From Aliiroseovarius halocynthiae (lineage in GTDB: Bacteria; Pseudomonadota; Alphaproteobacteria; Rhodobacterales; Rhodobacteraceae), in contig NZ_ML660020.1 in the NCBI RefSeq assembly GCF_007004645.1, forward strand, positions 1 through 64,000: a DNA stretch of 64,000 nucleotides, in the 5' to 3' direction. The notes under the pieces were generated by a model that was not told the DNA's origin, ran no database searches, and saw only the letters and a list, made by a program, of their open reading frames with translations. Positions 14,858-28,932 of the stretch are shown one piece after another (positions within the stretch are counted from its first letter, which is position 1; each line of letters begins with the position of its first letter). The position numbers and the translations under genes were made by a program.

Positions 14858-15484
14858 CTATCGATACTTCTCGATGAATTCATCAATGCCGAGCGCCCGG
14901 ATATCCGGCAATGCCGCTTTGTAAACGTCACGGTCCCAATCCCAAACGGCAATCGCCTGTAAGGCTTCGGCTTGCTGATCCGAGAACCTTGGCTTGATCG
15001 GTTTGGCGGGCACCCCGCCAACAACCGTATACGGATCGACATCTTTGGTGACAACAGCCCCTGCCCCGATGACAGCGCCATTGCCAATGGTTACGCCCGC
15101 GGTGACCGTGACGCCGTGGCCGATCCACACGTCATGGCCAATCGTAACCCAGTTCTCTTTACGCCATTCAAAGAAGTCATGATCGTCCTCGCCCAACCCG
15201 TAAGCCTCGGCGCGATACACCGAATGGTGCTGTAGCGCGCGCCATGTCGGATGATTGCCCGGATTGATCCGGGTGGAATTTGCGATCGAGCAGAATTTGC
15301 CAATCGTGGTCCAAACCACATGGCAGTTTTGCGTGATGTAGGAATAATCCCCCATCTGCGCGGCCTTCATCGTCGTGCCTTTGCCCACCTCGGTCCAAGC
15401 ACCCAATTCGCAATCTGTGACCGTCGCCTCGGGGTGAATGGTCGGCGTTTCCGAAAGACGGTTTTTCGATCCTGCACCGCTCAT
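14858..15484 (-). CDS. Hexapeptide-repeat acetyltransferase associated with phosphonate metabolism
   Basis: The 208-residue protein has left-handed beta-helix repeats: P-T-I-H-P-E-A-T-V, then [20 protein letters not shown], and [19 protein letters not shown], with the G-V-P-A-K exit motif. This corresponds to the 'phosphonate metabolism, transferase hexapeptide' family near C-P lyase genes, which is unrelated to the GNAT enzyme PhnO. It likely acetylates an aminophosphonate or a pathway intermediate. It starts within the stop of the permease gene (ATGA at 15484). A longer frame upstream is inside that permease and was rejected. Confidence 0.85.
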
Positions 15485-16338
15485 TTCGCGCCATCCCATT
15501 TGCCGATGATACGCTGGCGTATCAGTCCGGACAGATAGTCGATCGCATAGACCATGGCGATGATCAGGAAGATGATCGACCATGCCTCTTCCCATTTATA
15601 GGCCGAGATCCGGTCCGACAGCAGAAACCCGATACCGCCTGCGCCAACAATCCCAAGAATTGTGCCCGACCGCACGTTGCTTTCAAAGTTGTACAACAGG
15701 ATCGACAGGATCACCGGGTTCACCTGCGGCGCAATTCCGAAACGGATTTGCTGCAAACGCGATCCCCCAGATGCCTTCACACCTTCAACCGGCTTATTGG
15801 ATGTGTTTTCAATCGCTTCCGAAAAGAGCTTCGCGAACGTCCCAATCTCGGAGACGGCGATTGCCAGAATGCCAGGCAGCGGGCCAAGTCCAAATGCGCG
15901 AATAAAGATCAGCGCAAGGATCAGCGTCTCAAACGCGCGGATGACATCATAGCCACGGCGCGCGGATTGGCGCAAGAAGGTGAAGCGGTTGATATTCTTT
16001 GCCCCCAGCAGGGATACCGGAAAAGCGAAGATTGCGCCCAGCAAGGTCCCCATAAAGGCGATCGCCAGTGTTTCACCCAACCCATTCAGAACTTCAGAAA
16101 AGTCGGCCCAATTGTCCCATACATGCGGCGGAAACATAAAGCTTAGGACATTGCCCAAACGCCCCATGCCTTCCCAAATACGCATGGGGCTGAAGTCAAA
16201 CGCCCATAGGCAATAGCAAAACAGTCCAATGAACCCGATCCAAAGCGCAGCGCGGCGCATGCGCACGGTCAGCGGGGCTTGGAATGCCAAAGGCACACGC
16301 GCTTTGGCTGCGTTAATGTCGGTGTGGCTCAGGCTCAT
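15481..16338 (-). CDS. phnE: Phosphonate ABC transporter permease PhnE (second of pair)
   Basis: The 285-residue inner-membrane permease has six likely helices and the EAA-type loop [17 protein letters not shown], followed by the PhnE-typical [16 protein letters not shown]. It overlaps the preceding permease by 4 nt and the following transferase by 4 nt. With its partner it should form a heterodimeric channel served by PhnC and PhnD. Paired permeases are common in alphaproteobacterial phn operons. Confidence 0.9.
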
Positions 16339-17276
16339 GTCCGGTCCTCCAGACCAATCACGCGGTGGCGTAGTTTTTCCGAACCGTAGTCGATGATCGC
16401 AACGGTGATGAAGATGATCACAAACAAGGCGGACAAGTCTGTGTATTCTTGGAAAGACATTGCTGTGCGGAACTCTTGCCCAAGCCCACCGGCCCCGACA
16501 TATCCGATGATCGAGCTGGCGCGCACGTTGATCTCGAACCGCAGCAATGTGTAGCTAAGGATGTTAGGCAACACCTGCGGCACCGCACCATATCGGATCT
16601 GATCGAACCAACTGCCGCCTGCGGCTTTCACACCCTCTAGGGGGCGCATGTCGATGTTTTCGTTCACTTCCGAATATAGTTTGCCCAACGCCCCGGTCGC
16701 ATGAAGGCCAATCGCCAGAACACCCGCCAGTGGACCAACCGAAAAACAGAAGACGAAGATGAGCGCCCAAACAAGTTCCGGGACGGTCCGCGCGATTTCC
16801 AGATACCGGCGTGTTACCCACAACACCCATTTGTTGGGTGCCAGATTGCGAGACGCCGGGAAAGACAGCAAGAAGCCACCGACAACGCCGAAAACCGTTG
16901 CCATGAAGGCGATCAGGACGGTCTCAAGCAAGAGGTTCATCCAGATCTTCCAGCGCCAGAACCAATTGGTCAGATCCGCGCCCAGACTATCCCACCGCAA
17001 GACGGGAATGGTCTGTTCGATATATTCCCCCAATCGCGGGATGCCTGCCGGGATGATCCAGCGCCATTCGCGCGATCCATCTGGCATGCTGACCTGCGTG
17101 ATTTTGAAGAAATCTCCTAGCCAGCTGGTCAGCGCGAATATGACAAGGAAAAGAACTGTACCAATCGCCCAAGCCCGTTGGCTGCGACGGCGTTGAGCCG
17201 CGAAATCGCGCTCAAACTCAGAAATCGTTTCGGATGGCTGCGCGTTCGCGCCCGCCAGTTCTGCGGTCATGGTCAT
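16335..17276 (-). CDS. phnE: Phosphonate ABC transporter permease PhnE (first of pair)
   Basis: The 313-residue permease carries a longer N-terminus than its partner: about 30 soluble residues before the first helix (WAIGTVLFLVIFAL), then a large periplasmic loop. The ATPase-docking loop E-G-V-K-A-A-G-G-S-W-F-D-Q-I-R-Y-G and V-R-A-S-S-I-I-G-Y-V-G-A-G-G-L-G identify the family. The ATG at 17276 or the one two codons later could be used; neither has a clear ribosome-binding site. It is separated from phnD by a strong hairpin, so its level is probably lower than that of PhnD. Confidence 0.9.
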   Translation of the reverse strand: MTMTAELAGANAQPSETISEFERDFAAQRRRSQRAWAIGTVLFLVIFALTSWLGDFFKITQVSMPDGSREWRWIIPAGIPRLGEYIEQTIPVLRWDSLGADLTNWFWRWKIWMNLLLETVLIAFMATVFGVVGGFLLSFPASRNLAPNKWVLWVTRRYLEIARTVPELVWALIFVFCFSVGPLAGVLAIGLHATGALGKLYSEVNENIDMRPLEGVKAAGGSWFDQIRYGAVPQVLPNILSYTLLRFEINVRASSIIGYVGAGGLGQEFRTAMSFQEYTDLSALFVIIFITVAIIDYGSEKLRHRVIGLEDRT

Positions 17277-17335: not shown

Positions 17336-18259
17336 TTAGCTGGACGACTTGCGACGCTCGGCTTTGATCCAAGCACGCATGTCTACGATCCACTGATAGC
17401 GATCTGCATCGACACGCTCGAAGCCAACTTTGGGGTTTTTGTCTTCTGGATCGAATGACGAATAGGCCTTGAAACCTTCGACGTCTTCAACCGCGAATTC
17501 TTCAATCGCGACTGTGACATCTTCGATCATATCCGCTGGCAGGTTCTTGCGGAAAGTCCAAGGGCCAGTTGTGATCTCGGGGCTCTGCCAGATTTTGCAG
17601 ATTTGACCCGCGTCGATCATGCCTTTGGCTTCCATACGCTGATAGATGCCGTTCACGTCGTTGTTTTGGTATGTCGACGCCGTGTCAAACGTACCATTGT
17701 ACACGCCCTGAACGTCAGCTTCATGGCTGCCGCCAAAGGTCACCGTGCCGAAATGCTCTTCAGGTTTGAAACCCTCTTTATTGACCATATTCCAGTACGG
17801 AACCGCATAGCCGGAAGTGGAGTCGGGGTCAGCGAAAGCGTGGACTTTGCCCTTCGCATCTTCCAGCGATTTGATGCCAGAGTCGCAGCGGGTCACGACG
17901 ATGGAGTAGTACCCGGTGGTGCCGTCTTGCTTGATGTCGGTCAGAGTTGGGACAACGCCGCCATTGGTCGCGGTGTACGCAGCCGCATAGGAGGACGATC
18001 CCAGACGTGCGATTTCGATTTGATCCGCGGCCAGTGCCTGAATCACACCGTCATAGTTGCCGGCGGTGAAGATCTCGACTTCAATGCCCAGCTTCTTCTC
18101 CAGGTATTTTTCCAGCGGAGTGTAACGGGCGATGCGGTCTTTTTCGTTCTCGCCGGACAGAACGCCGAACTTCAGAACTTTGTAATCGTCTTTCCAGCCT
18201 TCAGCCATTGCTGGAGCTGCGATCAGAGCCGCGAGTGCGGCAGCCGTGATGAAACGCAT
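17336..18259 (-). CDS. phnD: Phosphonate ABC transporter substrate-binding protein PhnD
   Basis: The 307-residue protein has a signal peptide (MRFITAAALAALIAAPAMA) and the PhnD fold: Y-T-P-L-E-K-Y-L-E-K-K-L-G-I near the start, A-R-L-G-S-S-S-Y-A-A-A-Y at the ligand site, and F-A-D-P-D-S-T-S-G-Y as the second oxyanion-binding loop. The S-T-S-G-Y motif is the hallmark of phosphonate-binding PhnD proteins. It binds alkyl- or aminophosphonates in the periplasm. It follows phnC in the same unit and is followed by a hairpin that favours its own expression. Confidence 0.92.
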   Translation of the reverse strand: MRFITAAALAALIAAPAMAEGWKDDYKVLKFGVLSGENEKDRIARYTPLEKYLEKKLGIEVEIFTAGNYDGVIQALAADQIEIARLGSSSYAAAYTATNGGVVPTLTDIKQDGTTGYYSIVVTRCDSGIKSLEDAKGKVHAFADPDSTSGYAVPYWNMVNKEGFKPEEHFGTVTFGGSHEADVQGVYNGTFDTASTYQNNDVNGIYQRMEAKGMIDAGQICKIWQSPEITTGPWTFRKNLPADMIEDVTVAIEEFAVEDVEGFKAYSSFDPEDKNPKVGFERVDADRYQWIVDMRAWIKAERRKSSS

Positions 18260-18289: not shown

Positions 18290-19093
18290 TTAAGCCAGCA
18301 CCGAAGAATGAACGGATGTAGAGGTGACGGCTTCGTTGAATTCTCTCAGGCCTTCGAGGCCATAGATGTCGCGCACGACATCATCTGTAAGCTGGGCAGC
18401 TGTGCCATCGAAGAACACGCGCCCCTGCCGCATCGCGATAATGCGGTCGCAATAGGCGCGCGCAGTGTCGAGCGTGTGTAAGTTGACCAGAACGGTAATA
18501 CCGTCTTCACGGTTGATGGTTTTCAGGCCGTCCATCACCAAGGTCGCATTGGCGGGATCAAGCGATGCAATCGGTTCGTCCGCGAGCATGATTTTTGGTT
18601 GCTGAACCAACGCCTTGGCAATCGCGACGCGCTGCTGTTGCCCACCCGACAAAGTGCCCGCACGCTGAAGCGCTTGTGGCACCAGATCAAGCCGATCCAA
18701 CGCCTGAATGGCCATCGCCCGCTCTTCGTCGGAAAACCGCATGGCCATAGAGGATACAAAACCGTGCTCGGCCAATCGGCCGATCAAGACATTGGTCAGA
18801 ACGTCAAGACGCTCGACCAGATTGAACTGCTGGAAAATCATCGCGCAATCGCGACGCCATTCGCGCAGCGCTTTTCCTTTAAGAGCCGTTATGTCCCGTC
18901 CTTCGTACAAAATCGCCCCTTCGGTGGGGTCGACAAGTCGGTTGATCAGACGCAGCATCGTGGACTTGCCAGCGCCGGAACGTCCAATCACGCCGACGAA
19001 CTGACCGGAACGAATATCCAATGATACATCGTCCACCGCGCGGGTCTCGCCAAAGTGGCGTGACACCTTTTGAAGGGATAGGTCTGAACTCAT
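18290..19093 (-). CDS. phnC: Phosphonate ABC transporter ATP-binding protein PhnC
   Basis: A complete 267-residue ABC ATPase with Walker [10 protein letters not shown], signature L-S-G-G-Q-Q-Q-R, Walker B I-M-L-A-D-E-P and the switch region V-N-L-H-T-L-D, in the PhnC order. It powers uptake through the two PhnE proteins. The start M-S-S-D-L-S at 19093 is preferred, with GGAGCGATTGAG before it; an in-frame ATG at 19117 lies upstream inside the putative operator. It begins a new unit 124 nt after phnM. Confidence 0.92.
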
Positions 19094-19111
19094 CTCAATC
19101 GCTCCAGAGTG

Positions 19112-19128
19112 ATTCATTCGAACGTTTC
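19112..19128 (-). promoter_or_regulatory. Candidate half-conserved PhnF operator before phnC
   Basis: ATTCATTCG (19112-19120) matches nine bases of the palindrome before phnF; the other arm is degenerate (AACGTTTC). It lies 18 nt upstream of the phnC start, close to the spacing seen at the other two sites. It is the weakest of the three. Confidence 0.3.
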
Positions 19129-19217: not shown

Positions 19218-20402
19218 CTATTGTGCCGCAATCAGGTCAGACTTTGGTGCGAAATCCAGCACGCCCATCGCGTGGACAAAGCGGCCGTTTCGCATCGTTG
19301 CAACGACACGAGGCATCGCCCCGTGTTCGACAAACGCAAGATCCGCCTTCAGGCCAACCTCAATTCTGCCGCGATCCGTTAACCCAAGCGCCTTCGCCGG
19401 GTTGGACGTGATCAAGGCCGCGGCACCGGCGATGCCATTTGGATCTGTTTCGGCAATTTTCATCACTGCGGCAAGCATTGAAGCTGGGTGGTAATCTGAC
19501 GCCAGAATATCCAACAGCCCGGATGTATGTGCCTCGCGGGCTGACAAGTTGCCGGAATAGCTTTTGCCGCGCATGGCATTTGGCGCGCCCATTGCGGTCA
19601 TCAAGCCGCGTTCGGCGGCGACCTCGGCGGCTTCGAGCGTAACGGGGAATTCGCTGATCACTGCGCCGACATCCGCCATCAGATGTGCCTTTTCACGTGT
19701 ATCATCGTCATGGCTGGCCAATGGCACACCATGCGCGGCACATAGTTTAGATACGGCCTGGACATTGCCCAGAATGACGCTTTGCGGACGTGTCCGCTCT
19801 GCGATCCGTGTCGTTACGATCTGGCGGGCTTCGACCTCGGAAACGCCTTCGCGCGCTGCCAACATGGATATATGTCGTTCGATATCACGGTACTGCCCTT
19901 GACCCGGCGTGTGATCCATCACCGAAACCAAATCAACCTGTTGATCACGGATCAGGTCGGCCAGAACCTCGACCGCATTGTCAAAGGTGATGTCGAACCG
20001 TGCGTGGATTTTGTGATCCACCGCGCACCGATCACGCAGCCCGTGCAATGTGCGAATGGTGCGGCTGGTATGTTCAAATGACCGACGCTCTCCGCTGACC
20101 GCCCCGCGCGAGAAGCTTACAGCGGCATAGGCGGTGGTAATCCCGGACGCGGCAAGACGCGCGTCAAGATGCGCCAGCGCAATTTCCATCGGGAAATCCA
20201 CGCCTGCGCGTGGCTCGATCTCGATCTCGATCATGTCGCCATGCATGTCAATGAAACCCGGCATCACCAAAGCACCCTTGCAATCAAGCCCGGCTGGGTT
20301 TGGCACTTCGCTGATTTCGGCGATTACATCGTTTTGAATCCGCAGTGCGCCATTCGCGATGACACGATCTGGAAGAACCACCGAAAGACTAGACAACCAC
20401 AT
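19218..20402 (-). CDS. phnM: Alpha-D-ribose 1-methylphosphonate 5-triphosphate diphosphatase PhnM
   Basis: The 394-residue amidohydrolase carries D52-M-H-G-D56, M-D-H, the A-S-H-D-D-D metal motif and A-S-D-Y. PhnM cleaves the triphosphate intermediate to alpha-D-ribose 1-methylphosphonate 5-phosphate, the PhnJ substrate. It is the last gene of the phnF-M run and overlaps phnL by 14 nt. ATG 20402 is chosen because GGAGCGTGAAG precedes it; the frame opens five codons earlier. By position this is the canonical PhnM; the copy at 10518-11729 is the diverged one. Confidence 0.92.
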   Translation of the reverse strand: MWLSSLSVVLPDRVIANGALRIQNDVIAEISEVPNPAGLDCKGALVMPGFIDMHGDMIEIEIEPRAGVDFPMEIALAHLDARLAASGITTAYAAVSFSRGAVSGERRSFEHTSRTIRTLHGLRDRCAVDHKIHARFDITFDNAVEVLADLIRDQQVDLVSVMDHTPGQGQYRDIERHISMLAAREGVSEVEARQIVTTRIAERTRPQSVILGNVQAVSKLCAAHGVPLASHDDDTREKAHLMADVGAVISEFPVTLEAAEVAAERGLMTAMGAPNAMRGKSYSGNLSAREAHTSGLLDILASDYHPASMLAAVMKIAETDPNGIAGAAALITSNPAKALGLTDRGRIEVGLKADLAFVEHGAMPRVVATMRNGRFVHAMGVLDFAPKSDLIAAQ

Positions 20403-21105
20403 CTTCACGCTCCTCATTTTCCAAGCCCGGGGTCAGGTCAATCACACGATCTATCAAATGCGCGACGTCATCTGGGTGGTGGAACACACCGATCATCGCC
20501 GTGCCGTCAGCTTTCAACTGTGCAAGCCGCGCAACCAAGGCAGCACGCGCTTTGACGTCCAAAGACGCCGTCGGTTCGTCCAGCAGCAAAAGCTTCTGGG
20601 GCAGAATCAAAGCCCGCGCCAAATTGACTTTCTGCTGTTCACCGCCAGAAAACGTTGTGGGATAAGCGCGCCAAAGATCTTCCTTCACTCCGAAGGCAGA
20701 CAGCCATTTGCGCGCCTCATCCATGGCTGCTTCAGCGGTTTCACCGGCCATTCGAAGTGGCTCTGCGACCAAAGCCTCGGCTGAGACGCGGGGGCGTGCC
20801 ACCAAGAACTGGGTCACAAAGCCAATCTCTTCTCGCCGTAACATGGTGATGTCCACATCCGCAGCGCTTAGCAGGTCAATCGCGCCATGCTGAGAATGAA
20901 AGATGACCTTGCCGGATTGTGCGACATAAGATCGGTAAAGCGTACGCAGAAGCGTCGACTTCCCTGCTCCGTTTTGACCTTTCAGCAGAAGAAACTCTCC
21001 TGCTTTCAGATTGAACGAGACTTGATCAAAGGCCGCCAGATGGTTTCCCAAATGGTGCATCGTGAAGCCCTTGGTCAGGCTTTGAACTTCCAGAACAGTT
21101 GTCAT
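20389..21105 (-). CDS. phnL: C-P lyase ATP-binding subunit PhnL
   Basis: A 238-residue ABC-type ATPase with Walker A G-Q-N-G-A-G-K-S-T, a Q-loop in F-V-T-Q-F, the F-S-G-G-E-Q-Q-K signature and Walker B L-L-L-L-D-E-P. In E. coli PhnL is needed with PhnG, PhnH and PhnI for transfer of the methylphosphonate moiety onto the ribose of ATP, and it can bind the core complex on top of PhnK. It is not a transporter component. It overlaps phnK by 4 nt and phnM by 14 nt. Confidence 0.93.
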   Translation of the reverse strand: MTTVLEVQSLTKGFTMHHLGNHLAAFDQVSFNLKAGEFLLLKGQNGAGKSTLLRTLYRSYVAQSGKVIFHSQHGAIDLLSAADVDITMLRREEIGFVTQFLVARPRVSAEALVAEPLRMAGETAEAAMDEARKWLSAFGVKEDLWRAYPTTFSGGEQQKVNLARALILPQKLLLLDEPTASLDVKARAALVARLAQLKADGTAMIGVFHHPDDVAHLIDRVIDLTPGLENEEREDVVV

Positions 21106-21899
21106 AGCTTTGCGTGCACCAGTTGTTGAGTATAGGCGTGTTGCGGGTCTTGGAAAATTTGATCGGCAAGGCCGGCTTCGACCACTTCACCACGCCGCAT
21201 CACCATGACGCGATCCGCCAAGGTGCGGATCACACCCAGATCGTGGGATACGATCACCATCGTAATTTTCCGCTCTTGCTGAAGACGTTTCAACGTGTCC
21301 AAGACCAAGGCTTGAACGCTGACATCCAAGCCGGTGGTCGGCTCATCAAGCAAAAGCAAGGCGGGCTCTAACGCGATCGCCTTTGCCAGCTGCACACGTT
21401 GCTGCATCCCCCCCGACAGTTCGATGGGTGGGGCGTCCAGACGGTCCACGGGAAATTCAGATGCCTCCAAGGCCTCTTGCGCTTTTTCACGCAGGACCGA
21501 GAAGCGGCGTTCGCCAGCAACCAGCAGACGTTCCGCGACGTTGCCGGAAGACGAATGTTTCATCAACAAACCCAGATGCGGGTTCTGATATACAATCCCG
21601 ATCCGCTTTGCGCAAAGCATCCGACGGGCAAAGCGATCAAGGTCGAACAGATTGCCATCGACCTCGGGTAAATCCAGCGTATAGCTGCCTGAATCTGGCG
21701 TTTCTTCCAGATTGAGCATGCGCAGGAAGGTGGATTTCCCTGAACCACTTTCCCCAACAATGCCAAGAACTTCTCCGGGGAACACCTCGGAAGATACATT
21801 TTTGACTGCCTGCACGTGACCATAGGTTTTGCTGACATTCTGCGCCTTCAGAAGGGGGGCGGCTTTGACCAAACGGGGGGCTTCAATCGTGATCGCCAT
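21102..21899 (-). CDS. phnK: C-P lyase ATP-binding subunit PhnK
   Basis: A 265-residue ABC-type ATPase: Walker A G-E-S-G-S-G-K-S-T, signature L-S-G-G-M-Q-Q-R and Walker B L-L-L-L-D-E-P-T-T-G-L-D. PhnK binds the C-P lyase core at PhnJ and couples ATP hydrolysis to the reaction. The start at 21899 lies in an ATGA overlap with phnJ; the longer frame opening at 21926 would lie inside phnJ. All motifs look active, which suggests the core complex is used even though its PhnJ partner is unusual. Confidence 0.93.
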   Translation of the reverse strand: MAITIEAPRLVKAAPLLKAQNVSKTYGHVQAVKNVSSEVFPGEVLGIVGESGSGKSTFLRMLNLEETPDSGSYTLDLPEVDGNLFDLDRFARRMLCAKRIGIVYQNPHLGLLMKHSSSGNVAERLLVAGERRFSVLREKAQEALEASEFPVDRLDAPPIELSGGMQQRVQLAKAIALEPALLLLDEPTTGLDVSVQALVLDTLKRLQQERKITMVIVSHDLGVIRTLADRVMVMRRGEVVEAGLADQIFQDPQHAYTQQLVHAKL

Positions 21900-22810
21900 C
21901 AGGACATCTCTCCGTTTTTGTACCACGTTTCACCAAATATGGTGTCCGTGCCTTCAGTTTGTTTGATGCTTTTTACGCCAAATTCGCTGTCAGAGATCTC
22001 GTAGGTTGAGGATCCGTCGCCCTGCGGAATCTCGTTCATGAAGAACCCTTTTGCACCAGACCGGACGCAGGTCAGATCACCGTGTTCTTCGACCTTGTAG
22101 GGCACGTCATCAAACACCAGCGGCTCGACCCGTGTAAACGGCGGCACCGCATGGATGCGCTTTTCGCGGCCAGCAGACAGGATCGTCAGATGCTTCGCCA
22201 TATGCAGCTTGGGCACGTCCCAACGCGGGATCGGCGACGGGGTCATCACATGACGGCCATTCACCATCGACGGGTAACTCGCCCCTTGCATCACCCGGCC
22301 CGAACGCACGATCTGTTCGTAAAGCTGAAGCCACATGCGCCCATAATCGGCATCCGCATGCATTTGTCGCGCTATGGACATGTTGGGCTGCACCGGACGC
22401 AACGGCTCTGGGTTTGGAACCTGCAAAACCAGAACCTGATCTTCGCGCAGTTTTTCTTCTGGGATGCGGTGACGAGATTGGATCAGATCTGCATCTAGCG
22501 TGTCCAATGTCGTGGGCGCACCAGACACCCGCGCAAGGAAGCGACGGATCGACGCCGCGTTGACCGAGTCATCTGCACCTTGGTCAATCACCTTCACAGT
22601 CGTTTCCGGGTTGATAAGGGTCAGCGACACCTGCAGCCCCCCTGTCCCCCAGCCACGCGCCATAGGCACTTCGCGGCTGGCATAGGGCATCTGACACCCC
22701 GGCACCGCAACTGCCTTCAACATTTTCCGGCGAATTTCACGCTTTGCCGACGGGTCAAGGAACCCATAACTCATCGGTTCCCAGTCTTTGGTCAGTGTCG
22801 ATAAGCTCAT
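21899..22810 (-). CDS. phnJ: C-P lyase subunit PhnJ lacking three of four canonical Fe-S cysteines
   Basis: The 303-residue protein aligns along its length with PhnJ, which in E. coli cleaves the C-P bond as a radical-SAM enzyme (Gly32, and Cys241-x2-Cys244-x21-Cys266-x5-Cys272 for the cluster and thiyl radical). Conserved blocks are present: V-P-G38-C39-Q-M-P, R-G-W-G-T-G-G, D-Q-G-A-D-D, R-H-R-I-P-E, N-P-E-P-L-R, and A-G-R-E-K-R-I-H-A-V-P-P-F-T-R-V-E. But only two cysteines exist in the whole protein, C39 and C248. The cluster region reads C248-V-R-S and E-I-S-D-S-E-F-G, so Cys244, Cys266 and Cys272 are replaced by Ser, Ile and Gly. No frameshift or stop is seen. The gene overlaps its neighbours by 4 nt. 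Confidence 0.9.
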   Translation of the reverse strand: MSLSTLTKDWEPMSYGFLDPSAKREIRRKMLKAVAVPGCQMPYASREVPMARGWGTGGLQVSLTLINPETTVKVIDQGADDSVNAASIRRFLARVSGAPTTLDTLDADLIQSRHRIPEEKLREDQVLVLQVPNPEPLRPVQPNMSIARQMHADADYGRMWLQLYEQIVRSGRVMQGASYPSMVNGRHVMTPSPIPRWDVPKLHMAKHLTILSAGREKRIHAVPPFTRVEPLVFDDVPYKVEEHGDLTCVRSGAKGFFMNEIPQGDGSSTYEISDSEFGVKSIKQTEGTDTIFGETWYKNGEMS

Positions 22811-23862
22811 TGCGCTGGCTCCGGCTTTGGGGATTTCTTGGCTTTTGCATCACGCATCGCATCCAGAGACGATTGGAAGGTCACGTAGTGGGGCAATTTG
22901 AAGTGAATACAGAAGCCCGAGCTTTCCACACCTTCAGTGTGGTACAGATAGAATTCTTCTTCGGTGGCCGATCCTTTTTCCGCGCCCTTGCTGTTCAAAT
23001 CCAAAGTGGCGGCCGAGATGCATTTCACCTCGTTCCAGCCCAATGTCGCCGCGAAGCCAAGCTCGAGTTTCTCACCTTTCTTGGACACGACCTCTGCTTG
23101 GCTGACCTTTACGCGACCCGCCGAGAACGTCGTTCCATTCGGGTGGGTCACAGCGATCTCGGCCTCGGCCAAGCGCAACTCATTCACGGTTGGATGGGCT
23201 TGGCCATAACCACGCATCGCGGCATAGCCCAACGCCAAGGCGCCGCCGGTTTCGGACCGCGCAAGGGATTGCAGTGTATGTGCCCGTTTTGACGGGAACA
23301 GCAGCGGTTCCCGCGTGACGTCAGGAATGTCTTCCGGTTTTGTGTCGTCCGGCACCGGCAAATCCAACAGATCATTCTCGGCCTGCCACGCCGCCACGGA
23401 CGGTTGATAGGCCGATGAAGGCTTGTCTGCCGCTTCTACCTTTTCAGGGGCATAGGTCGCGCCATTCAAAACATCTGTCGCCAAGATCCGATGCGAATAA
23501 TCCAACGTTGGCCCAAGCACCTGTCCGCCGGGAATATCCTTGAACGCCGCTGAAATCCGGCGATGTGTGAACAGTTGATCCTGTGCAATCGGCGCAGCAA
23601 CTTGCAACCGAGGTTGCGTCGTACGCCATGCCCGCAGAGCCAATACAGCCTCAAACAATTCACCACCGGTTTGCGCCAAAGCCAAAGCCGCAAGGTCTTC
23701 GTCATACAGCGAAGCCTCGCCCATGACCCGATCAATCAGATAAGGCATCGCGGCTTTGACTTCGTCCACGCGCTGTTCTGTAATGTCTCCCATCGCGGCG
23801 CGATACAGACGTTCGGATTGCTCGATTGCGCGTTCTCCACCGCGTGTCGCAACATAGGCCAT
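22807..23862 (-). CDS. phnI: C-P lyase core subunit PhnI
   Basis: The 351-residue protein has the PhnI hallmarks M-A-Y-V-A-T-R-G-G-E-R-A-I at the N-terminus, F-K-D-I-P-G-G-Q-V-L-G-P-T-L-D-Y-S-H-R in the middle and a C-terminal part with E-G-V-E-S-S-G-F-C-I-H-F-K-L-P-H-Y-V. PhnI carries the nucleosidase activity that, with PhnG, PhnH and PhnL, replaces adenine of ATP by the phosphonate. Its length is normal. It starts in an ATGA overlap with phnH and overlaps phnJ by 4 nt. Confidence 0.93.
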   Translation of the reverse strand: MAYVATRGGERAIEQSERLYRAAMGDITEQRVDEVKAAMPYLIDRVMGEASLYDEDLAALALAQTGGELFEAVLALRAWRTTQPRLQVAAPIAQDQLFTHRRISAAFKDIPGGQVLGPTLDYSHRILATDVLNGATYAPEKVEAADKPSSAYQPSVAAWQAENDLLDLPVPDDTKPEDIPDVTREPLLFPSKRAHTLQSLARSETGGALALGYAAMRGYGQAHPTVNELRLAEAEIAVTHPNGTTFSAGRVKVSQAEVVSKKGEKLELGFAATLGWNEVKCISAATLDLNSKGAEKGSATEEEFYLYHTEGVESSGFCIHFKLPHYVTFQSSLDAMRDAKAKKSPKPEPAQ

Positions 23863-24398
23863 CAGAGTTCCTCTACTTTGGTGGATCGTGGAATGCCAAG
23901 CACCTGATCCCCGTCCACAAAAAACAGATCAAACCCCATCGGGTAGCGGATCAATTCTTGGCGCATATGCCAAAATCCTGTCGGCAGCCCCGCGATCTTT
24001 ATGTCGTGATGAAACTCGATGCCCGGGCCAGTCAGGCGCAGTTTTGACCCGACATTCAGGGGCGCGCGCACAACCACGGTTGCGCCGTCATCTGGATACA
24101 GATCACTGCCTTGCGCCACCGACAACAACGCCTCTGCATCCTGAACTGGCCCAAAGAACACAAGATCTGCGTCAGGCAATTCAGCAATCATCGCGCCGGT
24201 TTCCAATACCTGCGGCAGCAATGTTGGATCAGCGCAAAACACGCGACATTCGCGGTCCAACAAAGCGTCAACGATGGAACCTTCGCCCGCTGTTGGCAGC
24301 GTGCGGATCTGCCCCGGACGGCTAAGCGCATTTAACAACGCATCGAATGACTGATTAGCGCGAGTTTCCTCGACCGATGGGAGGGGTGCAGAAAGCAT
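23862..24398 (-). CDS. phnH: C-P lyase core subunit PhnH
   Basis: The 178-residue protein matches PhnH. It begins M-L-S-A-P-L-P-S-V-E-E-T-R-A-N-Q-S-F-D-A-L-L-N-A-L-S-R-P-G, the family opening, and contains L-R-L-T-G-P-G-I-E and a P-M-G-F-D-L-F-F-V-D-G near the end. PhnH is part of the PhnGHIJ core complex and resembles pyridoxal-phosphate enzymes without the cofactor. Start 24398 is an ATGA overlap with phnG; the frame's TTG one codon upstream was not used. Confidence 0.92.
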   Translation of the reverse strand: MLSAPLPSVEETRANQSFDALLNALSRPGQIRTLPTAGEGSIVDALLDRECRVFCADPTLLPQVLETGAMIAELPDADLVFFGPVQDAEALLSVAQGSDLYPDDGATVVVRAPLNVGSKLRLTGPGIEFHHDIKIAGLPTGFWHMRQELIRYPMGFDLFFVDGDQVLGIPRSTKVEEL

Positions 24399-24817
24399 CA
24401 AAATGTCTCCATATCTACGCGAGTCGCTTCCACCTCACACAGCGTGGTGTGGTCTTCAGCATCTTGAAGTTGCTTCTGGGCGGACACGAAGGCGTGGCAG
24501 TCCTCTGTGGCCATATCGCTTTGCATTGCCAGATCGACCAATGCCATTGCCATGGCGGCTTCCAGATCCCGCCCTTTGCGCATGCCATAACCTTGAAGGT
24601 CGCCGCGTTTGATTTGCGCCTCGCTGACCAGAACTTCGCCCAAATGAAACGCCGTCCCCTGCGCGGTATCGCGCATGGGAAGCATCACCAGTCCGGTTTG
24701 GCTTTTCTGGACGTCGATATCCCCCAACTGCGGGATCAGGGTTTCACCAAACGCCTTTAACGCCGCCCCTTTGCTTCTTGCGAGAATGCTAAGTATTTCG
24801 GAGTGAGGCCTATCCAT
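24398..24817 (-). CDS. phnG: C-P lyase core subunit PhnG
   Basis: The 139-residue product begins like PhnG (S-I-L-A-R-S-K-G-A-A-L) and contains V-M-L-P-M-R-D-T-A-Q-G-T-A-F-H-L-G-E-V-L-V-S-E and G-D-L-Q-G-Y-G-M-R-K-G-R-D, conserved family blocks. It belongs to the PhnGHIJ core. It starts 4 nt after phnF and overlaps phnH, placing phnF at the head of the same transcript. Confidence 0.92.
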   Translation of the reverse strand: MDRPHSEILSILARSKGAALKAFGETLIPQLGDIDVQKSQTGLVMLPMRDTAQGTAFHLGEVLVSEAQIKRGDLQGYGMRKGRDLEAAMAMALVDLAMQSDMATEDCHAFVSAQKQLQDAEDHTTLCEVEATRVDMETF

Positions 24818-24821
24818 GGCG

Positions 24822-25538
24822 CTATATCCCGTCCTTTGACATTGAGAATTTCACGCGGAGGGCAGACCAGATCACCTTTTTATAGCTCAGTGGTGTCCCA
24901 TCCAGCAGTTCGTCCAACGCACTGATCACCACCACAGGGCTATCAGCATGTTGCTTTAGAAGTTTGGCCTCATCTGGCCGAGCCAGTCGGCTGTGCAGCG
25001 TCGTTTCCGCACGCACATAATCGCGGATGCCATAGGTTTCATAGGCCTGCGTAGTTGAACCCAACACATCCCGGCGCGCAGCAAAATCAGGGAAGCGTTC
25101 CGCACTGTGATACGAAGCGCCGAAGGCAATAGGAACACCATCTGCATAGGTGATCCTGCGGCTCTCAATGACCAGAGCTCCAGGAACAAGCCCAAGCGCA
25201 TGCGCCACTTTTTCGCTGGATTTTACTTGCGTCGCAGAAAGAAGTTCGCCTGAAATATCAACGCCCTGCGCTTCCAGATTCCTGCGCAAACGTGTGCGGG
25301 ACCCAATGGCGTATTCAAGTAACGGCGCGGCTTCAACAAAAGTCCCCCGCCCTTGCTCGACACTGAGCGAACCCTCTTTCGAAAGCTCCAGAACAGCCCG
25401 TCGGACAGAGTGGCGACCAGCAGAAAACTGCGCGGCCAGCTCTGGCTCTGTCGGCAGCCGATCTCCGGGTTTGAAAACGCCCGCCTCGATATCTTGTTTC
25501 AGCTGGTTTTTGACCAGTCGCCATTTTTCTCTAACCAT
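24822..25538 (-). CDS. phnF: GntR-family regulator of phosphonate genes PhnF
   Basis: The 238-residue protein has a GntR winged helix (residues ~8-70: G-V-F-K-P-G-D-R-L-P-T-E-P-E-L-A, then R-H-S-V-R-R-A-V and G-R-G-T-F-V) and a UTRA-type ligand domain (~90-235). PhnF proteins repress phn operons and respond to phosphate status or a pathway metabolite. ATG 25538 is chosen; the frame also opens at a TTG at 25550. A perfect palindrome lies 10 nt upstream, suggesting autoregulation. It heads the phnF-G-H-I-J-K-L-M operon. Confidence 0.9.
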   Translation of the reverse strand: MVREKWRLVKNQLKQDIEAGVFKPGDRLPTEPELAAQFSAGRHSVRRAVLELSKEGSLSVEQGRGTFVEAAPLLEYAIGSRTRLRRNLEAQGVDISGELLSATQVKSSEKVAHALGLVPGALVIESRRITYADGVPIAFGASYHSAERFPDFAARRDVLGSTTQAYETYGIRDYVRAETTLHSRLARPDEAKLLKQHADSPVVVISALDELLDGTPLSYKKVIWSALRVKFSMSKDGI

Positions 25539-25547
25539 CTTACCAAG

Positions 25548-25567
25548 CAATTCATTCGGATGAATTG
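25548..25567. promoter_or_regulatory. Perfect palindrome before phnF, candidate PhnF operator
   Basis: CAATTCAT-TCGG-ATGAATTG is an 8-bp inverted repeat with 4-nt spacer, 10 nt upstream of the phnF start. Its 15-base core recurs exactly before the second phnD (7347-7361), and one arm recurs before phnC (19112-19120). GntR-family dimers bind sites of this kind. Confidence 0.55.
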
Positions 25568-25866
25568 TTCGTAGGAATGCTCAGTAACACTAGAATGACA
25601 ACAGAATGAAAAAACTATGTGGAGACGTGTTTTATGGTCAAGCCACTGCTGATCAAACCTGAATTTGCGTAGACATAACTTCGATCCAGACAAGTGATGA
25701 TGGGCAATCTCGAGCGGCAGCTGCGCGACACATCTGCGTTGGGTTTGTGGTCACATCGCATCATACAGACAGAACATATCCGCCTGATGACATTATCATT
25801 TTTGCAACAATGCATTCCAACCGTTGCCGTAAGTTCAAGGTATAAAGGCTAACTGGATCGCCGCTT
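25568..25866. other. Intergenic stretch between phnF and the TetR gene, no gene seen
   Basis: About 300 bp, visibly richer in A and T than the flanks. Short frames here have no recognisable domain or ribosome-binding site. It should contain the phnF promoter; I could not place its boxes with confidence. Confidence 0.5.
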
Positions 25867-26520
25867 CTATTGATCTTGCCCACCTTCAAGCCCCGCAATA
25901 ATCAGCTCCACCCCCTGCTCAAAGTTATGCAATCCGTCATATTCGCGCGCGGCGACTTTCTCGGCCATGGCGCGCAGGTTGGGATAGGTCTCGGCGGGGA
26001 TCAGGTGGAGGTGGGCTTGGGTGACCTCGGCGTATTCTTCGGGCGCGAAGGGGAAGTTTAGCTCCTGCAGGGTAAAGCCGTAGATGTGGCTGTCCATCAG
26101 GTTCCAGGCGTGGTCGGCGTCGATCAGCGCGAACCCGGCATTGGTCATTACCGCCAGCGTTGCCTCGACATAGGTCAGTCCGTTGGAGCCCATGTTCGGC
26201 AGCGACAACATCAGTTGGATCGTCCAGGGGTGACGCCGGAATACGGCGCGGGCGTTGTGGGCGCGGGCGCGGAGTTCGTCTTGCCATGGACCGTCCGGAT
26301 TGGGCAGCGGGATTTGCCCGACGGCCCAATCGACCATGCCCATCAACAGCGCGTCTTTGTTCGAGAAGTGATTGTAAAGCGACATCGCTTCGACGCCGAG
26401 GGCGCTGGCAAGCTTGCGCATGGACAGCGAATCGGCCCCGGCTTCGTCTGCCAGTTTCACGGCGGCAGACAGGATCGCCTCTCGTGTCAGTTTCGATGCT
26501 TTTCCCGATTTCTTAACCAC
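25867..26520 (-). CDS. TetR-family transcriptional repressor
   Basis: The 217-residue protein has a TetR DNA-binding domain at residues ~12-60 (T-R-E-A-I-L-S-A-A-V-K-L-A-D-E-A-G, L-S-M-R-K-L-A-S-A-L-G-V, S-L-Y-N-H-F-S-N-K-D-A-L) and a C-terminal domain like that of TetR class C-1 proteins. It diverges from the SDR-like gene, and the 95-bp gap contains two near-identical palindromes, so it probably represses both genes. The inducer is unknown. Confidence 0.88.
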   Translation of the reverse strand: MVKKSGKASKLTREAILSAAVKLADEAGADSLSMRKLASALGVEAMSLYNHFSNKDALLMGMVDWAVGQIPLPNPDGPWQDELRARAHNARAVFRRHPWTIQLMLSLPNMGSNGLTYVEATLAVMTNAGFALIDADHAWNLMDSHIYGFTLQELNFPFAPEEYAEVTQAHLHLIPAETYPNLRAMAEKVAAREYDGLHNFEQGVELIIAGLEGGQDQ

Positions 26521-26551
26521 TTGCGCCTCTTTATCGTTCCTCTCTTGATTT

Positions 26552-26601
26552 ACTTACAGCGTAAGTCTATATCAAGCCTCAAGTTAACTTACAGTGTAAG
26601 T
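26552..26601. promoter_or_regulatory. Two palindromic operators between the TetR and SDR genes
   Basis: ACTTACAGCGTAAGT (26552-26566) and ACTTACAGTGTAAGT (26587-26601) differ at one base. Arms are ACTTAC/GTAAGT, extended to 7 bp in the second copy. Their centres are 35 bp apart. Their sequence, symmetry and place between divergent genes fit TetR operators. Confidence 0.7.
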
Positions 26602-26615
26602 AAAGGATCAAGGAA

Positions 26616-27311
26616 ATGAAACGTATCTGTATCGTCGGGATCTCGGGGAAACTGGGACAATATATGCTGAAACACGCGCTTGAGCGCGGCTATCACGTGA
26701 ATGGCGTGTGCCGGGAAAAGAGCGTAGGTAAACTGGATGCCATCATGGCCGAACATGGGGATCGCATCACATTATTCCCCGGAAAGACCAATGATCGTGG
26801 CGTAATCGAACGCGCCGTGAACGGGTGTGTAGGTGTGCTGACCGTTCTGGCCCCATGGGGCGTGCAGCAATACTCCTCGGGCACCGCGCAGGCCGTCATG
26901 GATTTCGCCGAACCCGATGCCCGGCTGATTTTCTCTTGCGGTTGGCACATCACGATGGATGGCAAGGACCAGTATTCTTGGACGTTTCGTGCTCTTCTTA
27001 TGTTGGCAACGAAGCTGACGCGCTGGCTTCGCTTTGTCGAGATCGACGACCAAGTGTTGGCCTGCGACCTGATCTTTAAATCCAACACCAACTGGACCGT
27101 TGTCCGCGGATCGGACCTTGAAGAAGGTGAAAGCCAGGGGGTGCCGGTCTGGTCCGAGCACGTGCAGGATCCGATATTGGCCTCGAACAAAACCCGGCGA
27201 ATCGACTTTGCACTGTTCATGATTGAAGCACTGACAAACGACGCCCTTATCGGGAAGGCACCGGCGATCTGCGGGGCCGAAACGGAAAGCGCGCTGGCCC
27301 TGGCACACTAA
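26616..27311 (+). CDS. NAD(P)-binding, NmrA/SDR-like oxidoreductase
   Basis: The 231-residue protein opens with a Rossmann fold, I-C-I-V-G8-I-S-G11-K-L-G14-Q, the glycine pattern of atypical short-chain dehydrogenases. Later parts (V-G-V-L-T-V-L-A-P-W-G-V-Q; T-N-W-T-V-V-R-G-S-D-L) match NAD(P)H-binding NmrA-type proteins, some of which are redox sensors rather than enzymes. The classic Y-x3-K pair is not obvious. AAGGA precedes the ATG. It is under two TetR-type operators and is the likely target of the adjacent repressor. Confidence 0.75.
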   Translation: MKRICIVGISGKLGQYMLKHALERGYHVNGVCREKSVGKLDAIMAEHGDRITLFPGKTNDRGVIERAVNGCVGVLTVLAPWGVQQYSSGTAQAVMDFAEPDARLIFSCGWHITMDGKDQYSWTFRALLMLATKLTRWLRFVEIDDQVLACDLIFKSNTNWTVVRGSDLEEGESQGVPVWSEHVQDPILASNKTRRIDFALFMIEALTNDALIGKAPAICGAETESALALAH

Positions 27312-27430: not shown

Positions 27431-28099
27431 TTAACTTATCAGGTTCTTTTTCATCGCAAGTGCGACCAAATGATAGTTTGTTCTGCACCCCAGCTTCTTC
27501 CGACATGTTGACAAGCGCTCTTTCACCGCTGATTCAGAAACCCCGATTTTGGCAGCAGACTCTTTTACATTTAGATCATGAGCCAGACACTGAAGGACTT
27601 GAAGTTCCGCATTCGTAAACAAGTCACCTCGGGACAGCTTCATGAACAATTCGGTCGCAATCTCGGATATCCGAAGCATTTCCATTTCTGTGTACTCCCG
27701 ATCTGCTCGGGACACGCTGATGAGTGAATGATGATGCCCTGAGGACCGGCAAAAACAAGCGCCATATTTCAAGCCGTGCTCAGCGGCCTTCCGCATGAAC
27801 CGGCGGAAATCCGGAATTGGCACACCAGACCAACGGTAATCCCCTGTCTTAAACAACGCCCACAACAAGATCGGGTCGAGCACGAAGTATCTTTTCGCTT
27901 CGTATTCCTGCTGCCAACTTATCGGATACGTACATTCGAAGTGCTCATACCCCCGGAGTGAAACATTCACGAGCAAACTGAAACCGGACGGTGCGAGGTC
28001 TTCAATCTCGGGCCTGATTTCATCAAATGCGACCGATATCAAATGATCACGTTTTCGAATTTCTGGGTCGGGACTTAATGCGCGTTCATCAATCTGCAT
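27431..28099 (-). CDS. LuxR-family quorum-sensing regulator
   Basis: The 222-residue protein has an N-terminal autoinducer-binding domain (~25-150) with the usual Y-F-V-L-D-P and W-x-G-V-P-I-P-type blocks, and a C-terminal LuxR helix-turn-helix (~155-218: F-T-N-A-E-L-Q-V-L-Q-C-L-A, then A-A-K-I-G-V-S-E-S-A-V-K-E-R-L, K-L-G-C-R-T-N-Y-H-L-V-A). It diverges from an AHL synthase with two palindromes between them, the classic cognate pair layout. It would bind the acyl-homoserine lactone and act on these sites. Confidence 0.88.
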   Translation of the reverse strand: MQIDERALSPDPEIRKRDHLISVAFDEIRPEIEDLAPSGFSLLVNVSLRGYEHFECTYPISWQQEYEAKRYFVLDPILLWALFKTGDYRWSGVPIPDFRRFMRKAAEHGLKYGACFCRSSGHHHSLISVSRADREYTEMEMLRISEIATELFMKLSRGDLFTNAELQVLQCLAHDLNVKESAAKIGVSESAVKERLSTCRKKLGCRTNYHLVALAMKKNLIS

Positions 28100-28248: not shown

Positions 28249-28932
28249 ATGACAACAGATGTGCGCAATATCGGCGTTAGCGGTTCCGGTGAAATCTGCA
28301 GCACCGTTGTCCAGATTCCGTTGAACCTAGTTGGCGTGAATGTCCGAGAATCCCAAGGGTATGAACTTTTCCACCAGTACCTAAAGCTTAGGCAAGATGT
28401 CTTTACTGTTCAGAAGAAGTGGCGCGTCTGGCTTTCCGCACAGAATGACCTTGATCAGTATGACCAGCACGACACATGCTATGTACTCGCTTACGAGCGG
28501 AAAACGATGAATGTTGTCGGTGGCGCTCGTTTGCTGAGAACCGACCGCGGCGGGCAACACCCACTTCCTGGTCGCTTTACCTATATGATTAGGGATGCCC
28601 AGCGCGGGTTATTGGATGGCCTTCCGTCCGAGCTTTGTGACAATGTTCCAGTCTGTTGCGCGGACACATGGGAGCTTACCCGTCTGGTGACCAATGGCTC
28701 GATCGGCGTAGGTAAAGAAGTCCTCCGAGCCTCTAACACATTTCTCGCCTCGCGAAACGCAAAACGCTGCATGTTTCTGGGACCACCTGCATTCATGAAA
28801 ATGGCCCGTTCAATGGGGTATAATCCGGTACCCATGGGAAAAATAGCCGGGAATAGAGATGGTCGTTTTGTTGTCTTCTCGACCGAGGTGATTGCCGAAG
28901 ATGGCGACTATCCCGCGCAGCTGACGGCCTAG
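28249..28932 (+). CDS. Acyl-homoserine-lactone synthase (LuxI family)
   Basis: The 227-residue protein shows the LuxI catalytic set: L-R-Q-D-V-F and W near the start, Y-D-Q-H-D-T-C-Y-V-L with the two acidic residues, G-G-A-R-L-L-R-T with the conserved arginine, and W-E-L-T-R-L-V with the Glu-Arg pair. It makes an N-acyl-homoserine lactone from SAM and an acyl carrier. It has about 25 extra N-terminal residues compared with the shortest family members. GAGGAAATAG precedes the start. Acyl chain length cannot be read from sequence. Confidence 0.9.
   Translation: MTTDVRNIGVSGSGEICSTVVQIPLNLVGVNVRESQGYELFHQYLKLRQDVFTVQKKWRVWLSAQNDLDQYDQHDTCYVLAYERKTMNVVGGARLLRTDRGGQHPLPGRFTYMIRDAQRGLLDGLPSELCDNVPVCCADTWELTRLVTNGSIGVGKEVLRASNTFLASRNAKRCMFLGPPAFMKMARSMGYNPVPMGKIAGNRDGRFVVFSTEVIAEDGDYPAQLTA

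Follow-up and report, generated by a model that had tools for sequence, protein, structure and literature searches.

In the carbon–phosphorus (C-P) lyase of E. coli, the PhnJ subunit (PDB 4xb6, 7z15-7z19; PF06007) carries four cysteines, C241, C244, C266 and C272, for a [4Fe-4S] cluster. PMC9947105 assigns R107, H108 and Q124 of PhnJ to ligand contacts at the Zn site, describes the Zn ligands of PhnI and the ATPase residues of PhnK and PhnL, puts a distance of about 30 Å between Gly32 and the cluster site, and states that C-P lyase, discovered more than 35 years ago, still has an unresolved mechanism. A second described system is the operon on plasmid pVV8 of Thermus thermophilus HB8, which shows the gene order C-D-E-G-H-I-J-K-L-M. 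Its phnJ gene is annotated simply as C-P lyase PhnJ, and the encoded protein reads C-T-V-M at the four cysteine positions. A search of the open-licence literature for cysteine-lost PhnJ proteins found no report.

The window analysed here, a stretch of 64,000 nucleotides from Aliiroseovarius halocynthiae, contains a phnJ gene of the same cysteine-lost kind (21899..22810, minus strand), with an ATG start and an unbroken frame that encodes 303 aa. The protein matches Pfam PF06007 with 388.8 bits (cut-off 25) and is 45-49% identical to E. coli PhnJ in structure alignments; NCBIfam is uninformative, as it returned no PhnJ match for the window gene or for E. coli PhnJ. A structure model, used for the fold alone, predicts that the PhnJ fold is present. 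The translation contains two cysteines in total, C39 and C248, as the preliminary description had stated. Mapped to E. coli PhnJ, the positions 241/244/266/272 correspond to C248 (codon 22067..22069), the sole ligand position kept, S251 (22058..22060), I272 (21995..21997) and G278 (21977..21979), all on the minus strand, so three of the four cysteines are replaced. The residues C-S-I-G had been correctly recognised before, but the x21 spacing given for this region is that of E. coli; the window protein has C-x2-S-x20-I-x5-G. The radical-glycine pair Gly32-Tyr33 of E. coli corresponds to G38-C39 (22694..22699, minus strand; translation PG-C-Q), again as first described, and this Cys is a difference from the Tyr found at position 33 of the Thermus protein. 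With C244, C266 and C272 substituted, the E. coli-type Fe-S cluster has lost its set of cysteine ligands. By profile and fold, the window gene is a member of the PhnJ family without the defining cysteine feature of a radical-SAM C-P lyase, which is four cysteines for [4Fe-4S].

The operon around this gene runs phnF-G-H-I-J-K-L-M-C-D-E-E, and a TIGR03308 hexapeptide transferase gene comes next; all of them are on the minus strand, and the partners G, H, I, K, L and M are all encoded in one operon with phnJ. The genes for the GntR-type regulator PhnF (24822..25550) and for PhnH (23862..24401) are recognised by Pfam and, above the cut-off, by NCBIfam. The phnI gene (22807..23862) has a Pfam profile match, and the Zn ligands H219, H328 and H333 (E. 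coli numbers) are retained in the group. PhnG (24398..24817) matches Pfam and reaches 78.8 bits in NCBIfam, under the cut-off of 89, and the ATPases PhnK (21102..21926, with a listed GTG start that is possibly too early) and PhnL (20389..21105) stay under their NCBIfam equivalog cut-offs. Such scores for G, K and L might be expected for a diverged paralogous system. Matches above cut-off are found for the diphosphatase PhnM (19218..20417; NF011988), the transporter ATPase PhnC (18290..19117; TIGR02315, 330 bits), the binding protein PhnD (17336..18259; TIGR03431, 276 bits), the two PhnE permeases (16335..17276 and 15481..16338; TIGR01097, 256 and 273 bits) and the hexapeptide-repeat transferase (14858..15595; TIGR03308, 278 bits), whose true start is probably later. 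A TIGR03308-like transferase was rejected as a marker of the cysteine-lost type, because a relative is also present in 12 of 16 normal loci. The earlier statement that the frame and the partner genes around phnJ are intact is borne out.

A Pho-box-like site (25595..25612, minus strand), located 62 bases before phnF, matches 11 of the 14 positions of a Pho-box consensus. Sites with at least 11/14 matches occur in 12/22 phnF and 4/21 phnC upstream stretches of the cysteine-lost type, and in 3/15 phnG and 3/8 phnC upstream stretches of the normal type. As consensus matches, these sites are no more than suggestive. Just upstream of the phn operon, the stretch 25867-27311 holds the genes for a TetR-type regulator and a divergent NAD(P)H-binding protein. 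A gene for a LuxR-type regulator with autoinducer-binding and GerE domains (27431-28099, minus strand) adjoins one for a LuxI-type autoinducer synthase (28249-28932, plus strand).

Same-type PhnJ proteins, 75-100% identical to that of the window, are encoded in 24 of 394 genomes of the family, the next best match being 52% identical. The alignment shows that all 24 contain PG-C-Q and have no cysteine at the same three positions, where the replacements are S/T, a small aliphatic residue and G/A, respectively. The question of a clade-wide type, raised in the preliminary description, can thus be answered positively, and a sequencing slip or chance is excluded by this agreement. The order F-G-H-I-J-K-L-M-C-D-E-E is contiguous in 18 of the 24 loci; among the incomplete ones, contig ends truncate L095, L097, L105 and L107, other genes precede C-D in L103, and C-D-E is absent near L106. 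Clusters with PhnC-, PhnE- and PhnM-like genes (about 30-42% identity) are present near the operons L086, L087, L096, L103, L138 and L139, and some of these clusters were read as also holding a methyltransferase and a PhnD-like protein.

The genome of A. halocynthiae encodes a second PhnJ on contig C3, which has all four cysteines (478.8 bits) and is 49% identical to the window PhnJ. Like the window operon, the canonical operon on C3 (L001/L108) contains the core genes and its own transporter; unlike in the window operon, phnF is divergent. The C3 operon carries PhnN and DUF1045. Five genomes carry both types of phnJ on a single contig, at a distance of about 19-25 kb (L090/L114, L092/L115, L100/L119, L101/L120 and L087/L111). 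The preliminary description had considered that a normal PhnJ might be encoded elsewhere and that the window copy is a decaying duplicate; the normal PhnJ exists, but decay is not what the data indicate. The presence of a normal gene in the same genome counts for decay or for an error in sequencing, while agreement of all 24 same-type genes at the cysteine positions, the intact operons and the existence of genomes with cysteine-lost PhnJ as the sole copy found (see below) argue against it. The dN/dS values of cysteine-lost PhnJ are also low, with 0.02-0.13 in six of seven genome pairs and 0.35 in one, compared with 0.01-0.16 for normal PhnJ in the same seven pairs, several dS values being saturated. 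Shared positions, intact operons, sole-copy genomes and dN/dS together rule out a decaying duplicate, and we consider decay or sequencing error an extremely improbable explanation.

In a class-wide sample of 289 genomes the type is present in only two, both from the same family. Of 587 relatives from a scan of genome contigs the best 80 were kept, and 31 of these are without the full cysteine set: L124-L150, whose hosts include Rhodobacterales, Devosia, Hoeflea, Rhizobium, Phyllobacterium, Mesorhizobium and Anaerolineae MAGs, and additionally L183 (Bacillota MAG), L195 (Solibacillus palustris), L198 (Anaerolineaceae MAG) and L201 (Ureibacillus MAG). Relatives of the window type extend to Rhizobiales, Anaerolineae MAGs and T. 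thermophilus HB8. Five plasmid records, pVV8 and four others, read cysteine-lost, and all are annotated as ordinary PhnJ. In Haematobacter massiliensis pOT1-5 (L275), IS66 genes are located between phnM and phnC of the cysteine-lost operon. Within the class to which the Anaerolineae MAG G720 belongs, 6/249 genomes show matches; the six full-length PhnJ are cysteine-lost, and one further match is a fragment. PhnJ is found in 43/200 genomes of the Solibacillus order, with one match each. Reading of 30 of these 43 showed 19 cysteine-lost proteins (17 CTCM or CTCL, 2 CTTM) and 11 with CCCC.

In 37 genomes, a cysteine-lost PhnJ is the only PhnJ found, as determined by a Pfam search in a set of 31 genomes and by single-protein searches elsewhere. 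These 37 comprise 12 of the 31 genomes, 3 of the 24 family genomes, 18 additional ones of the Solibacillus order and 4 additional ones of the G720 class. Another PhnJ match is held by 21/24 family genomes, the exceptions being G134, G357 and G395, of which G395 is 79% complete. A single PhnI above the cut-off is present in each of the first 15 sole-copy genomes, and five weaker PhnI matches in these 15 sit at the expected place of phnG. As 37 genomes showed the cysteine-lost type alone, it is unlikely that a normal PhnJ is required as a partner.

Residue conservation was counted in 134 PhnJ rows, of which 64 are cysteine-lost and 70 intact. Of the lost rows, 46/64 keep one or none of the four cysteines and 18/64 keep two, whereas G32, R107, H108 and Q124 are conserved in 134/134 rows (64/64 lost, 70/70 intact). 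Positions 7, 8, 42, 244, 266, 272 and 275 of PhnJ are the only ones that are more than 70% conserved in the normal type and altered in each of the two lost groups. Conservation extends to the partner proteins of the cysteine-lost loci: the PhnI Zn ligand H219 is present in 55/55, H328 and H333 in 54/55 with one gap, and conservation of the ATPase residues is 55/55 for PhnK and 54/54 and 52/54 for PhnL, with two gaps.

These counts also bear on the proposal in the preliminary description that Cys39 beside the radical glycine takes over the thiyl role. Position 33 is occupied by Tyr in 38/64 and by Cys in 26/64 lost rows, and Cys is also present in 2/70 intact rows, which rules out Cys39 as a general substitute thiyl residue. 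As C39 is invariant in the window subgroup (24/24), a local role is possible there. A single cluster bound by C39 and C248 within one chain is unlikely, considering the distance of about 30 Å between the cluster site and Gly32. Radical chemistry could in principle be kept if the cluster or the radical came from another protein or if the ligands were not cysteines. The invariance of Gly32 in 64/64 lost rows would fit such a role, or equally a purely structural one; the cysteine-lost PhnJ L150, however, contains no cysteine at all, and the large share of rows with at most one ligand further argues against it, making a retained radical mechanism very unlikely.

Phylogenetic trees were calculated with the four cysteine columns left out. 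A tree of 100 PhnJ proteins requires three changes, and so does one of 134 rows. On a 50-row tree, a single clade of all lost rows is rejected (p-AU 0.00044), but a grouping of only the eight Bacillota-type lost rows is not (p-AU 0.293). Therefore, the cysteines were lost at least two times independently, with a separate loss in the Bacillota-type clade, apart from the group of the window, and L183 possibly represents a third (p-AU 0.293). The CTCM forms look like a step toward full loss. Outside the lost clades, which occupy three places in the tree, no row lacks even one of the four cysteines. Two four-cysteine PhnJ proteins of the family, L060 and L061, have Asn or His after the radical glycine, and L060 is found on a separate four-cysteine branch.

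The three broad options of the preliminary description, namely an altered cleavage, a cluster bound in another way and a different reaction, all stay viable. The chief rival explanation starts from the ordinary enzyme. Its four-cysteine site might be non-catalytic, i.e., structural, zinc-ribbon-like or responsive to oxygen or iron, and the lost forms would catalyse the same reaction in a metal-sparing or oxygen-tolerant manner, similar to the C-minus paralogues of ribosomal proteins. Nesting of the Bacillota-type losses in an otherwise canonical clade is in line with this proposal, as are the two-of-four intermediates (CTCM) and the single PhnJ per genome in 43/43 genomes of the Solibacillus order with a match. 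A PHP gene follows phnL in 4/4 Bacillota-type lost loci of the contig scan, as in many four-cysteine relatives, which points in the same direction. PMC9947105 gives the cluster site as distant from Gly32 and the mechanism as unresolved, and PMC11978286 ties the four cysteines to a zinc atom as well as to an Fe-S cluster. On the other hand, according to PMC9947105, PhnJ cleaves the C-P bond in a SAM-dependent radical reaction that is strictly anaerobic, and complete conservation outside the lost clades suggests a strong role of the cysteines where they are kept. On balance, a non-catalytic site in ordinary PhnJ appears unlikely.

Genes for processing of 5-phosphoribosyl 1,2-cyclic phosphate (PRcP) are kept in many, though not all, of the sole-copy genomes. 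PhnN and DUF1045 are found above cut-off in five of six alphaproteobacteria with cysteine-lost PhnJ only (G134, G357, G709, G711 and G718), and some of these genes adjoin the cysteine-lost operon. Both are also inside the cysteine-lost operon of Mesorhizobium AR07. The sixth genome, the 79% complete G395, has neither PhnN above cut-off nor DUF1045. In G720-G724 (three Anaerolineae MAGs, one 'bacterium' and one 'Bacteroidetes' MAG), PhnN above cut-off is absent from all five and DUF1045 from four, the exception being a weak match of 31 bits in G722, barely over the cut-off. None of the 22 genomes searched, normal-type hosts included, has a PhnP above cut-off, so that this protein does not discriminate between the types. 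The best match of the Solibacillus PHP protein is phosphoribosyl 1,2-cyclic phosphate diphosphodiesterase, at 299 bits and thus below the cut-off of 500 bits, and the other three Bacillota-type PHP genes were compared with that of Solibacillus alone. The operons of Rhizobium L141 and Anaerolineae L147 have genes for PhnX and a TIGR03364 oxidoreductase as neighbours. Together, the PRcP genes, PhnX/TIGR03364 and the Pho-box-like sites point to P acquisition in a phosphonate setting as the likely role, with PRcP as the probable product; this is context and not proof.

The same gene context weighs on a possible shift to another class of substrates (P-O, P-N or P-S compounds), or to formation of only a ribosylated intermediate that is finished by another enzyme. 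The window operon has its own binding protein and transporter, the phnD of the normal operon being 34-37% identical to that of the window, and both systems are kept in 21/24 family genomes. Sugar-type ABC transporter genes and a phosphodiesterase-like gene are annotated near the Thermus operon; near L092, a scan shows a phosphodiesterase-like gene, and other genes there are, in our reading, sugar-type ABC transporters. While these observations are in favour of a shift, the PRcP genes are present where the cysteine-lost type is alone (5/6 alphaproteobacteria, 4/4 Bacillota-type loci), PhnX and the TIGR03364 oxidoreductase adjoin the operon in a Rhizobium and an Anaerolineae locus, and the window PhnD exceeds the curated cut-off for phosphonate binding. 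The PhnD pocket, compared for a hint at the substrate, falls in a region where the alignment is loose. A change of substrate class appears unlikely.

The explanation that we tentatively favour, at somewhat less than even confidence, is a functional paralogous complex of the C-P lyase type without a cysteine-ligated [4Fe-4S] cluster in PhnJ, perhaps with non-radical chemistry at the Zn site. In this proposal, PhnG/H/I/L would join the phosphorus compound taken up by the cell to the ribose moiety of ATP, as in E. coli, PhnM would trim the product of this step, and PhnK/PhnL would open and close the complex. In the least certain step, the Zn ion and His114 (E. coli His108) may promote attack of the ribose 2'-OH on the phosphorus, so that R is expelled as leaving group as in a ribonuclease-type transesterification; judged by gene context, the end product would be PRcP. 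Polar cleavage of an unactivated C-P bond is not expected, and the 2'-OH model therefore needs a special R group. Substrates would accordingly have to be phosphonates or P-X compounds whose leaving group is stabilised, and this restriction would account for the retention of the radical type in many hosts.

The findings suggest that C-P lyase chemistry can run, or was changed to run, without a PhnJ cluster. Going further, the cysteine-lost type may be a recurrently evolved C-P lyase, perhaps oxygen-tolerant, that cleaves the C-P bond without a PhnJ-borne iron-sulfur cluster, which is conceivable, although our confidence falls clearly short of even. Natural complexes that lack the cluster ligands and keep the rest provide a direct test of the need for the cluster. 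The phnJ gene serves as C-P lyase marker in ocean surveys (PMC6852614) and as marker of methane-releasing strains (PMC12413358), and glyphosate breakdown is described for Lysinibacillus sphaericus (PMC7017551). As cysteine-lost genes are labelled ordinary PhnJ in the five plasmid records, gene counts may overstate the capacity for C-P lyase activity and methane release. If cluster-free C-P cleavage holds true, the radical-SAM mechanism would not be essential, or a second chemistry would exist for the same step.
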